Both the position numbers and the translations under genes were made by a program. Source: Gemmatimonadota bacterium (GTDB lineage: Bacteria; Gemmatimonadota; Gemmatimonadetes; Gemmatimonadales; GWC2-71-9). From it: a stretch of DNA of 64,000 bases. The notes beneath the pieces are model-generated. The model saw only the letters and a list, made by a program, of their open reading frames with translations. It did not search any database and had not been told where the DNA came from. Of the stretch, positions 11,996-16,038 are shown piece by piece (position 1 is the stretch's first letter; the number at the start of each line of letters is the position of its first letter). The stretch lies in NCBI GenBank assembly GCA_029262195.1, contig JAJCZX010000021.1, forward strand, positions 1 through 64,000. Reading direction: 5' to 3'.

Positions 11996-14632
11996 TCACC
12001 TTTTCCTGCGACCACCTCTACGGCCGGGCCCAGATCCCCGAGGGTTGGGAAACTTGCCTCTCCCACCGCGTTCGCTCCGATCCGATCTGGCCAGCAAACT
12101 CCGCAGCTCACCCAGCGACCTGGCCCTGGCGGCGCGACGGGTCCCCGAAAACACAACAAACCGCAGCGGACGGTCTAGTTTGGGGAGATCTCTGTTCGTC
12201 AAACCCAACGCAAACTTGGGTTTTAGAAAAACGGTCGCGACGGGTTCGCCATCGTCCATTTCGTATTCGAGCCGGACTCTGGTCTTGCCGAATTGAACAA
12301 ATATCGGAAGAGAATCCATTTTCTGACGCAGTTTCTTGGGAACGATATCAGCCACGGCCAATGAAATTGGCGTATCCAGGAAGCTTTGGAACGAGGTGAC
12401 ATCGTCGAGTTTTTCGGCCAGAATAGAGGTAATACGGTCCGGATTTGCCCGGTCGTAGATGTCGAGAGATTTTTTCGAGTACTCCGCAATTTGGGTCAGC
12501 ACTTTCGACAATTCCGCCTGGTCCGCGTGGGGGGTGGCGCCTGCCAACAGCGAATCAGCGAGTCCGAGTTTAGCAGCGCGAGAGAGGTTTTTGGGAAACG
12601 GTTCGGGCAGCGGTTCTCGGTGGAAGTCCATTTCAAAGCCGTGAAAGCGTTTCACCCGGGTTATCATAAGGTTGGAGCGCTTCCCGCGCGGCAGATACTC
12701 GACAATGGATTCCGCATCCACCGCATTTTCTGTGAGCATCCGCAGCGGCAGATTGGTACCTTCTATCGCAGCCCTCGTGGACCCGTCTTTCAGGGCGAAA
12801 TACCTGATTTCCCCGGTCACCGGTCCCCATTTATTGCATACCGATCCCCGGCTGACCCTTGTTTTCCGGCCGTTGGATTGCTGCTGGTCAATCACCAGAT
12901 CGAACGGCATTACGCGGACAAAAAGTTCGGCCAACTGCTTTAGCGTGCCGGTGGTGGCGTTCGGCAGTTTTTTCGGCAGCGGACGACCAATGGTTCTAAA
13001 GACTGACGCAATGCCGAGCGCTGTGTCCTCAATTGCCTTGACGAGAACCCCTCTTCCTTCAGCCCAATCCTCTAGTTCATCAGAAAAGACATGGCGTTCC
13101 AGGCCGTAAACCTCGCCCACCTGGCCGTACTGGTTCACCGCTTCGGCAAAGACGTTATAAGCGGTCAAATGGTCTGATCCCGACACCACAAGTCCTGTCA
13201 AATTAGGATCATCCCTTGTCATTCGATGCAGGGAGTCGATATTGGACGCAACGGCCACATATGGTAAAATTTTGGGGTCGCAGTGCACCAGTAGTTCAGC
13301 CCAGGGCCGGTCAACAGGCATCGTTTCCACGGCGCGACCATACTCGGTTAGGCGACCACGTTCGATTATTCCCCGCTCGGCAAGGTTGCGTACCGCACGA
13401 CGATAAGCCCGCCGGTCCAGGGGCACAGGGAGTTCCAGTTCTTCAAGATCTACTCCAATTGCCGCAGCGGTCAACGCGACCCGCTCGGAATCTCCCGCTA
13501 ACTGGAATTCCGGTGGTACGGGCTTGAGAGCTTTGAAATTCAGGTTCCGTTCGGTCAGGATATGCACTTCGCCCCCTGCAACTCTCCCGTGAACTCTTCC
13601 AGCCATTTGAAGTAGTTCGTTCGAGCCCAGGGGTTTGCGAGTCAGGATCTTACGCCCTTTGTCCACATTGATGGCAAACCGACCGTCACTAATCACCACC
13701 GTATCGAGTCCCGGAATATTCAGGGCCGACTGCCCGGCGGCCGTCATGGCTAACAAAAAAGGCTTTTTGGCTTCTCCATCTAAGAACGGCCGGATTACCC
13801 TTATCGGTTCACCGCCATGGTAGAAGGCGGTTTTCAAGCCAGCCCATCTGTCTCCCACCTCTGCGGCGAGTTGTTCGACTTCGGCACGGGTCGGTAAAAA
13901 CACTGCGACCCCTCTTTGCTCTTCGATAACACGCTTAATGAACTGACTCTGTATGAACCCCACCGCGGTATGCCGATTGGTCGACACAGCAGCGGCGAGA
14001 TCCGGGTCGAACGCGGTGGAGTGGAGCACCCGGCTGGATTCGAGATAATGTGAGAAAAAATCGGGGTCCACCGTTGCAGAAAGCCATACGAAACGGCATC
14101 CAACCCTTTTCCCGAGTGCCAGGCATAACTCCAATTCAGCTGATGTCTGGTGAATTTCGTCGACGACAAGAGTGTCCTTGCCTGTGATCAACTCGTCTTG
14201 AAACCAGCGACGAGCGATGCCAGTTGTGACGATTACAACGTTCCACGATGGCGTTTCCGGCGTGGCTTCCCGTTCACGGTTAACCACGCCCACTTTGAGA
14301 TCAGCCCCCAGCACCGCCTCGGCGATGGGGCGAATCGCGAGCGTCTTGCCTGTTCCCGTTCCGGCCACAATTCCGAACCCGTCTCCACTCCGGGCGAGTT
14401 GAACGATCTCTTCACCATGATTACGTCGTAATACAGTGTCAATATCCAGTTCAAGAGCCCGTTCGATAGTCTCACAGGCCGCCCTGGTGGGTGCAATAAC
14501 GATTACTCGACCCCCGCTTGACCGTGAGCCTACGAACGCGTCCCGATCGGGGGGGAGGTAGTGATCGCGAATTTCGGCGGTGTCGATTCCGCGGACCGAC
14601 TGGCCCGACTCAGCTCCTTTGGGTTCGCTCAA
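11996..14632 (-). CDS. DEIH-box SF2 helicase, HrpA/HrpB-like, with RGG tail
   Basis: This 878-residue ATP-dependent helicase of the DEAH/RHA group has motif I GTGTGKT (91-97), motif II DEIH (158-161) and motif III SAT (185-187). Motif VI is QMAGRVHGR (342-350), unusual against the common QRxGRAGR. The C-terminal region resembles HrpB-type extensions and ends in a basic, Arg/Gly-rich tail (RGGRGKFPNPRGSGPGRRGG) that probably binds RNA. DEIH is not the standard DEAH/DECH. It is the third gene of an overlapping operon: its ATG overlaps the pfkA stop by 4 nt. It likely acts on RNA or RNP, but the target is unknown. Confidence 0.85.
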   Translation of the reverse strand: MSEPKGAESGQSVRGIDTAEIRDHYLPPDRDAFVGSRSSGGRVIVIAPTRAACETIERALELDIDTVLRRNHGEEIVQLARSGDGFGIVAGTGTGKTLAIRPIAEAVLGADLKVGVVNREREATPETPSWNVVIVTTGIARRWFQDELITGKDTLVVDEIHQTSAELELCLALGKRVGCRFVWLSATVDPDFFSHYLESSRVLHSTAFDPDLAAAVSTNRHTAVGFIQSQFIKRVIEEQRGVAVFLPTRAEVEQLAAEVGDRWAGLKTAFYHGGEPIRVIRPFLDGEAKKPFLLAMTAAGQSALNIPGLDTVVISDGRFAINVDKGRKILTRKPLGSNELLQMAGRVHGRVAGGEVHILTERNLNFKALKPVPPEFQLAGDSERVALTAAAIGVDLEELELPVPLDRRAYRRAVRNLAERGIIERGRLTEYGRAVETMPVDRPWAELLVHCDPKILPYVAVASNIDSLHRMTRDDPNLTGLVVSGSDHLTAYNVFAEAVNQYGQVGEVYGLERHVFSDELEDWAEGRGVLVKAIEDTALGIASVFRTIGRPLPKKLPNATTGTLKQLAELFVRVMPFDLVIDQQQSNGRKTRVSRGSVCNKWGPVTGEIRYFALKDGSTRAAIEGTNLPLRMLTENAVDAESIVEYLPRGKRSNLMITRVKRFHGFEMDFHREPLPEPFPKNLSRAAKLGLADSLLAGATPHADQAELSKVLTQIAEYSKKSLDIYDRANPDRITSILAEKLDDVTSFQSFLDTPISLAVADIVPKKLRQKMDSLPIFVQFGKTRVRLEYEMDDGEPVATVFLKPKFALGLTNRDLPKLDRPLRFVVFSGTRRAARARSLGELRSLLARSDRSERGGRGKFPNPRGSGPGRRGGRRKR

Positions 14633-15711
14633 CCGTCACCCAGACAGACGCCCAGGTCCCGAGCCGTTTGGACTGTATCCGCCCCAAGCGGGACGGTTTT
14701 CAGTTGCCCGATTCCGTCTTTGATCGGCATCGTCAATACCTCCTGGCCAGCAAACGTGACCATTTTTCCAAACTCGCCTCTTTCCGCTGCGCGAACCGCA
14801 GCAGCGCCAAACCTGACCGCAAGGAGGCGGTCGAAGGTTGTGGGTGAACCGCCTCTCAACAAATGGCCGAGCGTTAGTGTCCGTGTTTCTTTTCCGGTTT
14901 TGGCGTGGATTGCGTTCGCAACCAATTCAGCTATTCCACCAAGCCGCTCGACCCCTCCGGGCTCTCCGGGATCTCTCAGGCTAACACCACCGTCCTTAGG
15001 GGCGGCGCCTTCAGCTACAACCACTATGGAAAACGGGATGCCCCTGGCCTCTCGATCACGGACTTTCTTGCAAACGGATTCGATGTCGTATGGGATTTCG
15101 GGGATGAGGATCACGTCAGCGCCACCCGCCAATCCCGAGTGTAGGGCGATCCACCCCGCGTTCCTTCCCATTACTTCAACAACCAGGACGCGCTCGTGGC
15201 TTTCAGCCGTAGTGTGTACCCGATCTAGAGCCTCGGTGGCGATGGAGACTGCGGTGTCGAACCCGAAAGTCACATCCGTGGCACCCACGTCATTGTCAAT
15301 CGTTTTAGGCACTCCGATCACCGGAAGACCAAGCTCAGAAAGCTTTTGCGTTATGGCCAGTGTGCCGTCTCCACCAATCGCGATGAGGCAGTCGAATCCT
15401 CGCTCCCTGAACACAGCCGCTAACTCTGCAGACCTGTCCTCTTCTCTCCACTTGCCGTCCAACCCCAGGAGTGGCCAACGAAACGGATTCCCCCGGTTGG
15501 TTGTACCGAGGATTGTACCGCCCTGGTGGATAATGCCACGGACGTTTTTTGATTTAAGCCTGATTATGCGCGCGTCTCCAAGAAGTCCACCGAACCCCCG
15601 GCGACTTCCGTACATCTGGAAGCCCTTGGTAAGACCCGAGGAGACCGCTCCCTTAATAACGGCATTCAGGCCCGGCGCATCTCCACCCCCGGTAGCAATT
15701 ACTATTTTCAA
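14629..15711 (-). CDS. pfkA: 6-phosphofructokinase (ATP-type signature)
   Basis: PFK phosphorylates fructose 6-phosphate at C1 in glycolysis. The glycine after the Asp in GGDGT (113-117) is the residue that marks ATP-dependent enzymes, since PPi enzymes have Asp there. PKTIDND (135-141) has the Lys found in the group III, actinobacterial-type and PPi enzymes. MGRNAGW and the substrate-binding stretch are present. The 360-residue length is that of group III proteins. The start is TTG at 15711, which overlaps the stop of the selenoprotein gene (TTGA); the stop overlaps the helicase start (ATGA). It is therefore translated in a tight three-gene unit. Confidence 0.9.
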   Translation of the reverse strand: MKIVIATGGGDAPGLNAVIKGAVSSGLTKGFQMYGSRRGFGGLLGDARIIRLKSKNVRGIIHQGGTILGTTNRGNPFRWPLLGLDGKWREEDRSAELAAVFRERGFDCLIAIGGDGTLAITQKLSELGLPVIGVPKTIDNDVGATDVTFGFDTAVSIATEALDRVHTTAESHERVLVVEVMGRNAGWIALHSGLAGGADVILIPEIPYDIESVCKKVRDREARGIPFSIVVVAEGAAPKDGGVSLRDPGEPGGVERLGGIAELVANAIHAKTGKETRTLTLGHLLRGGSPTTFDRLLAVRFGAAAVRAAERGEFGKMVTFAGQEVLTMPIKDGIGQLKTVPLGADTVQTARDLGVCLGDG

Positions 15712-15944
15712 GAAGTTTCCGTTTTTTCGTTTAGCAGGCTCATGACTTCGCCGTCAAAAGGGTGTCTCCCGAGTCGCAGTTTCGAAAACACAGGTTCCCC
15801 GTCGACTGCAACTTCGAACACTCCGCCGGCGCCTTCAACCAAACGTATCCGGGCATCCGGGTAGGCCGTCTTGATCTCAACCTCCAAACTGGAGGCTCGC
15901 GGTTTGTAGTTTCAAACGCCACAATACTGTATGGTAACGTCCAT
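15708..15944 (-). CDS. selW: SelW/Rdx-family selenoprotein with in-frame UGA (CxxU)
   Basis: The minus strand from ATG 15944 reads MDVTIQYCGV, then TGA (15914-15912), then NYKPRASSLEVEIKTAYPDA...GAGGVFEVAVDGEPVFSK, ending at TGA 15708. If the UGA is selenocysteine the product has 78 residues with the redox motif C-x-x-U (Cys8, Sec11). Strand, CxxU, helix and the GxGGVFEVxVxGxxVFSK segment match SelW/SelT/SelH thioredoxin-like (Rdx) proteins. GGAGACAGG precedes the ATG. The ORF track missed it because of the UGA. Its stop overlaps the pfkA TTG start. Rdx proteins are thought to act in thiol redox; the partner is unknown. A SECIS-like hairpin follows the UGA. Confidence 0.85.
15879..15897 (-). 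promoter_or_regulatory. Bacterial SECIS-like hairpin
   Basis: On the minus strand CCTCCA-GTT-TGGAGG forms a 6-bp perfect stem, extendable by A-U and G-U pairs to 8 bp. The loop is 3 nt and begins with G. The loop lies 22 nt after the UGA. Bacterial SECIS elements characteristically have a small apical loop with a G in its first positions at roughly this distance, so it fits SelB binding. Confidence 0.75.
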
Positions 15945-16038
15945 CCTGTCTCCGTTCAGGGTTTCGAAAACTCTCCGAGGGGCGGTGGTAAGTTAGCAAA
16001 CTTCTTTCTTCTGACGCCAATTTTCTTACTTTATTGAA

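Follow-up and report, generated by a model that had tools for sequence, protein, structure and literature searches.

The question raised by this locus was whether a short hairpin directly after an in-frame UGA on the minus strand of the window (the whole 64,000-nt stretch of Gemmatimonadota DNA analyzed here) is a bacterial selenocysteine insertion sequence (bSECIS), with the UGA read as selenocysteine (Sec). The ATG at 15944 opened a frame of 78 residues whose one internal interruption was the UGA and whose terminator was a TGA at 15710–15708 on the minus strand. When UGA was translated as U, the product began with MDVTIQYCGVUNYKPRASSLEVEIK... and contained the motif YCGVU. It matched PF10262 with 67.4 bits (cut-off 22.6; E 1.3e-18, residues 3–71), and this match crossed the UGA, with both the frame and the domain running on beyond it. 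By sequence, its relatives of solved structure in the PDB included C17orf37, Atu0228, and selenoprotein W (2npb). With an Rdx domain and a CxxU motif close to the N terminus, the product had the features of a SelW-like (Rdx) selenoprotein. Cys-for-Sec homologues also exist, namely an orthologue with CVGC in genome G201 (locus L144) and remoter Rdx proteins with CTGC or CPRC (L153–L156). The features of the locus are listed in the table.

Table. Coordinates of the selW–pfkA locus in the window and the basis of each assignment
Feature	Positions	Strand	Basis
Putative bSECIS hairpin (5′ arm 15897-15890, GUU loop 15889-15887, 3′ arm 15886-15879)	15879..15897	-	Folds and comparative tests
selW-like (Rdx family) selenoprotein gene, predicted, 78 residues, CxxU	15708..15944	-	Translation with UGA=U; PF10262
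In-frame UGA, read as Sec (U11 of CGVU) in the predicted product	15912..15914	-	Translation; homologue alignment
Likely Shine-Dalgarno GGAG, 5 nt 5′ of the selW ATG (15944)	15950..15953	-	Sequence reading
pfkA (6-phosphofructokinase), TTG start	14629..15711	-	ORF and domain match; selW adjacency

The minus-strand RNA from the UGA on was UGA AAC UAC AAA CCG CGA GCC UCC AGU UUG GAG GUU. In numbering that starts from the T of the UGA, bases 18–25 (AGCCUCCA) pair with bases 29–36 (UGGAGGUU) around GUU. The sequence-only reading had described a minus-strand hairpin, CCTCCA-GTT-TGGAGG, with a G-first loop 22 nt past the UGA, and this hairpin was real and predicted by folding: 15896-15890 paired with 15886-15880, and an outer A-U pair (15897-15879) brought the total to 8 pairs. 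The predicted energy was -9.9 to -10.0 kcal/mol, and the predicted minimum-energy fold kept at least 7 of the 8 pairs. The CCUCCA arm began 16 nt 3′ of the UGA, and the spacing from the UGA to the loop was 22 nt to GUU, or 21 nt when AGUUU is counted as the loop. Published bSECIS constraints, as given in PMC13188914, were applied by script. In that model, a loop of 3-9 nt and an upper stem of 4-16 bp lie 16-37 nt from the UGA with an energy of at most -7.5 kcal/mol, and a G occurs within the first two loop positions, usually in the form N1-G-(G/U)-N-N2, where N1-N2 pairing is possible (PMC13188914). The selW hairpin fell within all of these constraints (8 bp, GUU, 22 nt, about -10 kcal/mol); its loop, A-G-U-U-U, fitted N1-G-(G/U)-N-N2, its stem was fully paired, and no feature broke the model. 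The likeness to known bacterial SECIS elements in spacing and in the G near the loop start, proposed from the sequence alone, was upheld. In E. coli K-12 fdhF, the SECIS loop is GGUCU and lies 18 nt past the UGA; this loop is identical to that of many selW homologues (21 nt after the UGA), whereas the window itself has AGUUU. The fdhF type is also characterized by an unpaired U in the upper stem, and in this feature the selW hairpin differed, since its stem is fully paired and an unpaired U was not conserved.

As a single sequence, the hairpin was unusual only mildly, yet it was significant against its own coding constraint. The fold energy of the 50-nt stretch gave z = -1.2 against dinucleotide shuffles, 25 of 200 of which folded equally well, and a bSECIS-model-like hairpin of equal or greater stability was found at 20 of the 1,998 TGAs in the window (~1%). 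When the window peptide was recoded synonymously, 284 of 200,000 recodings retained the loop motif with every one of the 7 pairs. The sequence-only reading had regarded the hairpin as independent support for Sec insertion; its SECIS reading was right, but the support from the hairpin alone is modest because about 1% of the TGAs in the window have a hairpin as stable. An Rfam scan of the region with E values up to 10 gave no SECIS match; the one match returned, to a CRISPR repeat, was insignificant. When a model of the element (R1) was run against the genome, the window copy was the single convincing match, with 60.2 bits; other matches in the genome scored 17.8 bits or less, and no plausible selenoprotein frame was found at the five that were inspected. 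The strong evidence for a SECIS is comparative, and on sequence grounds the comparison settles the question.

In a class-wide search of 394 genomes, selW homologues were found in 180, nearly all with a single in-frame TGA, and a phylum search with the Pfam family agreed with this result. The fetched loci with TGA at the aligned codon numbered 151, of which the 149 that were distinct over 60 nt formed the set for the conservation counts. These UGA homologues aligned without gaps through the hairpin, with the conserved core GCCNCC-RGUYU-GGNGGC. The loop G and the U of loop position 5 were each kept in 148 of 149, as were stem pairs 6-12 and 3-15, and pair 5-13 was kept in all 149. The loop motif NG(U/G)NU together with six or more of the 7 stem pairs was present in 145 of 149. 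The conserved apical motif is, from this alignment, RGUYU, in which N1 and N2 can pair as A-U or G-U around the G(U/G)N loop, in agreement with the model of PMC13188914. At stem position 4 the window has U-A and most homologues have G-C, so both sides differ with pairing kept, and this change in the window alters the protein from Ala..Ala, as in most homologues, to Ser..Glu. The alignment proposed earlier as a check showed a stem and loop G conserved with compensatory changes. The hairpin was also present at the same position in all five loci from outside the phylum (one Firmicute, two near-identical Acidobacteria MAGs, a Chloroflexi MAG, and a Myxococcaceae MAG), with weaker stems in the Firmicute and Myxococcaceae loci.

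Several homologues departed from the common form. An A-C mismatch at stem pair 4 (GCCACC...GGCGGC) occurred in 25 of 149 homologues, for example L019 and L025, a frequency indicating that this position tolerates mismatch. The sole UGA homologue without the loop G was L122 (G192:C155), with GCCACC-GCGUU-GGCCGC; the SelB gene of this genome was truncated at a contig start, and L122 possibly carries a decaying or shifted SECIS. Two in-frame TGAs were present in the homologous matches of G223 (C55:638-853), G131, G106, and G025, and G223 carried a second, weaker selW-like copy. A search of plasmids for selW-like homologues gave no match.

The source genome (4.2 Mb, 93% complete) contained the genes expected with a bSECIS: SelB above the NCBIfam cut-off, SelA at 506 bits, SelD with one in-frame TGA, and a tRNA-Sec at 70.5 bits, above the Rfam cut-off and confirmed by ARAGORN. 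SelB, whose absence the sequence-only reading had named as a reason to abandon the idea, was thus encoded alongside the other three. The SelD of this genome, at L174 (G000:C1:50719-51648), is also predicted to contain Sec (SHGAG-U-ACK), and a strong hairpin (GGCGCAGGUUCUGCGCC) lies 3′ of its UGA. This hairpin, GGCGCA-GGUUC-UGCGCC, has a stem and a GUU loop with N1-N2 closed, like that of selW, and differs in that the loop lies farther from its own UGA (about 33 nt versus 22). Across the 394 genomes of the class, 166 had both SelB and selW, 14 selW only, 121 SelB only, and 93 neither, giving an odds ratio of 9 (P 2e-16, with relatedness uncorrected). Among the 14 genomes with selW only was G201, a single contig with a 100% completeness score, in which no SelB was found above the cut-off; its orthologue has Cys (TGC) and carries GCGUU where the UGA forms have RGUYU. 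The Cys Rdx proteins L153–L156 belong to a distant subfamily, and therefore the G201 orthologue was the sole direct Cys control. Several drafts (G004, 99% complete; G259; and a few others) had a UGA selW with an intact hairpin and no SelB over the cut-off, plausibly through an assembly gap, or else after a recent loss of the machinery.

A hairpin at this position might have arisen as a by-product of coding, since an Ala-rich 'RAxxLAA' Rdx peptide in GC-rich DNA brings complementary GCC and GGC codons together. The peptide is indeed Ala-rich, its synonymous recodings kept about 5 of 7 pairs on average, and hairpins as stable stand near about 1% of the TGAs in the window. The loop and wobble bases, however, were fixed far past codon usage. 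In the loop codon, Gly was encoded by GGU in 67 of 68 cases and Ser by AGU in 61 of 61, versus 12% and 2%, respectively, elsewhere in the same genes, and the usual choices, GGC or UCN, were displaced; Leu was encoded by CUG or UUG in 143 of 144 cases, though CUC makes up 40% elsewhere. The residue at the loop codon in the UGA forms was only Gly, Ser, or Arg, bar one Ala, and the identity of the protein residue there appears to be set by the RNA loop. Pairs 0-18 and 3-15 each link two third-codon positions and are wholly synonymous; at these two wobble-wobble pairs, 103 Watson-Crick pairs were observed versus 58 expected, and 131 versus 115, among sequences encoding the same residues, and neither value was reached in any of 20,000 shuffles. 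In 56 diverse members the covariation score was 0.345, versus 0.189 for shuffled alignments and 0.142 or less for slid structures, and RNAalifold recovered the same 8-pair helix unprompted. Because the covariation shuffles leave relatedness uncorrected, every gene was also recoded synonymously with pooled codon usage from the rest of these genes. In 300 trials, an average of 9.4 of the 149 recoded genes, and never more than 19, had the loop together with six or more of the 7 stem pairs, against 145 of 149 observed. The Cys orthologue of G201, moreover, retained the peptide and lacked the loop motif. A hairpin produced by coding bias was rejected as contradicted by the recoding test, and we regard it as highly improbable. 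The UGA homologues showed selection at the RNA level, as expected of a bSECIS.

Two further accounts take the UGA itself to be something other than a Sec codon. It could be an ordinary stop, in a leader peptide, a decayed gene, or a sequencing error, with a hairpin that is incidental or an attenuator of pfkA; UGA is normally a stop, and the small frame lies directly 5′ of pfkA. Against this, the Rdx domain crosses the UGA, the genome carries the Sec machinery, and about 150 genomes share TGA at the CxxC/U position, followed by conserved protein sequence, leaving the ordinary stop with almost no probability. Reading of the sequence 3′ of the hairpin revealed no U run, and a terminator or attenuator was rejected on that ground. 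Readthrough elements downstream of stop codons do occur, and the UGA could be recoded in another way, by tRNA suppression or as Trp, with the hairpin acting as a readthrough or pausing element that does not bind SelB. However, the UGA aligned with the redox Cys of CxxC, by which a reading as Trp was rejected, and the terminator of selW is itself TGA. With SelB and tRNA-Sec present and a loop that fits the bSECIS model (PMC13188914), recoding of this kind is just as improbable as an ordinary stop.

The hairpin is therefore best explained as the bSECIS of a SelW-like selenoprotein gene, an assignment that the comparative sequence evidence makes very probable. The frame, the conserved structure, the RNA-level selection, and the presence of the machinery genes were all established at the level of sequence, and binding of the hairpin by SelB and incorporation of Sec at this UGA are inferred by analogy with the established E. 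coli mechanism. In the E. coli pathway, domain 4 of SelB binds the hairpin, brings Sec-tRNA(Sec), and blocks release factor 2 (PMC5311926). By the same route, SelA would make Sec-tRNA(Sec) using selenophosphate from SelD, and SelB would carry it and bind the G(U/G)N apical loop of the hairpin, so that the ribosome would place Sec at the UGA instead of terminating. The product would be a CxxU thioredoxin-like redox protein. SelW-like selenoproteins with a bacterial SECIS have been known since 2005 from the Sargasso Sea (PMC1088965), and selW here therefore belongs to a known kind; they are the most abundant selenoprotein family in marine samples of the GOS (PMC2398784). The reported cases (PMC1088965, PMC2398784, PMC1794560) share with it the CxxU motif, the small thioredoxin-like protein, and a SECIS directly past the UGA, whereas the window gene differs in its spread across Gemmatimonadota and in adjoining pfkA. 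No paper on Gemmatimonadota SelW was found in a literature search that left many journals outside its range.

The stop codon of selW overlapped the TTG start of pfkA by 4 nt (TTGA, 15711-15708). Among the window and loci L017–L168, selW lay directly 5′ of pfkA in 107 of 153, and in 26, the window included, the stop and start overlapped by 4 nt as NTGA. Because the selW frame ends within the TTG of pfkA, ribosomes could reach pfkA and re-initiate there only after inserting Sec at the UGA, which would make the translation of phosphofructokinase selenium-dependent. We consider such coupling unlikely: many selW–pfkA pairs are spaced rather than overlapping, and the pair persists in the Cys form, the G201 orthologue overlapping pfkA by one base. 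These results confirm selW here as a gene, one that would be missed or cut short in standard annotation. They also show a wide distribution across Gemmatimonadota of SelW-type selenoproteins that share a uniform SECIS, and the 149 aligned elements make a useful benchmark for models of the bacterial SECIS. The pairing of selW with pfkA also points to a possible connection of selenium with glycolysis that could be tested; if the coupling were true, the SECIS would act as a switch through which glycolysis in Gemmatimonadota responds to selenium.
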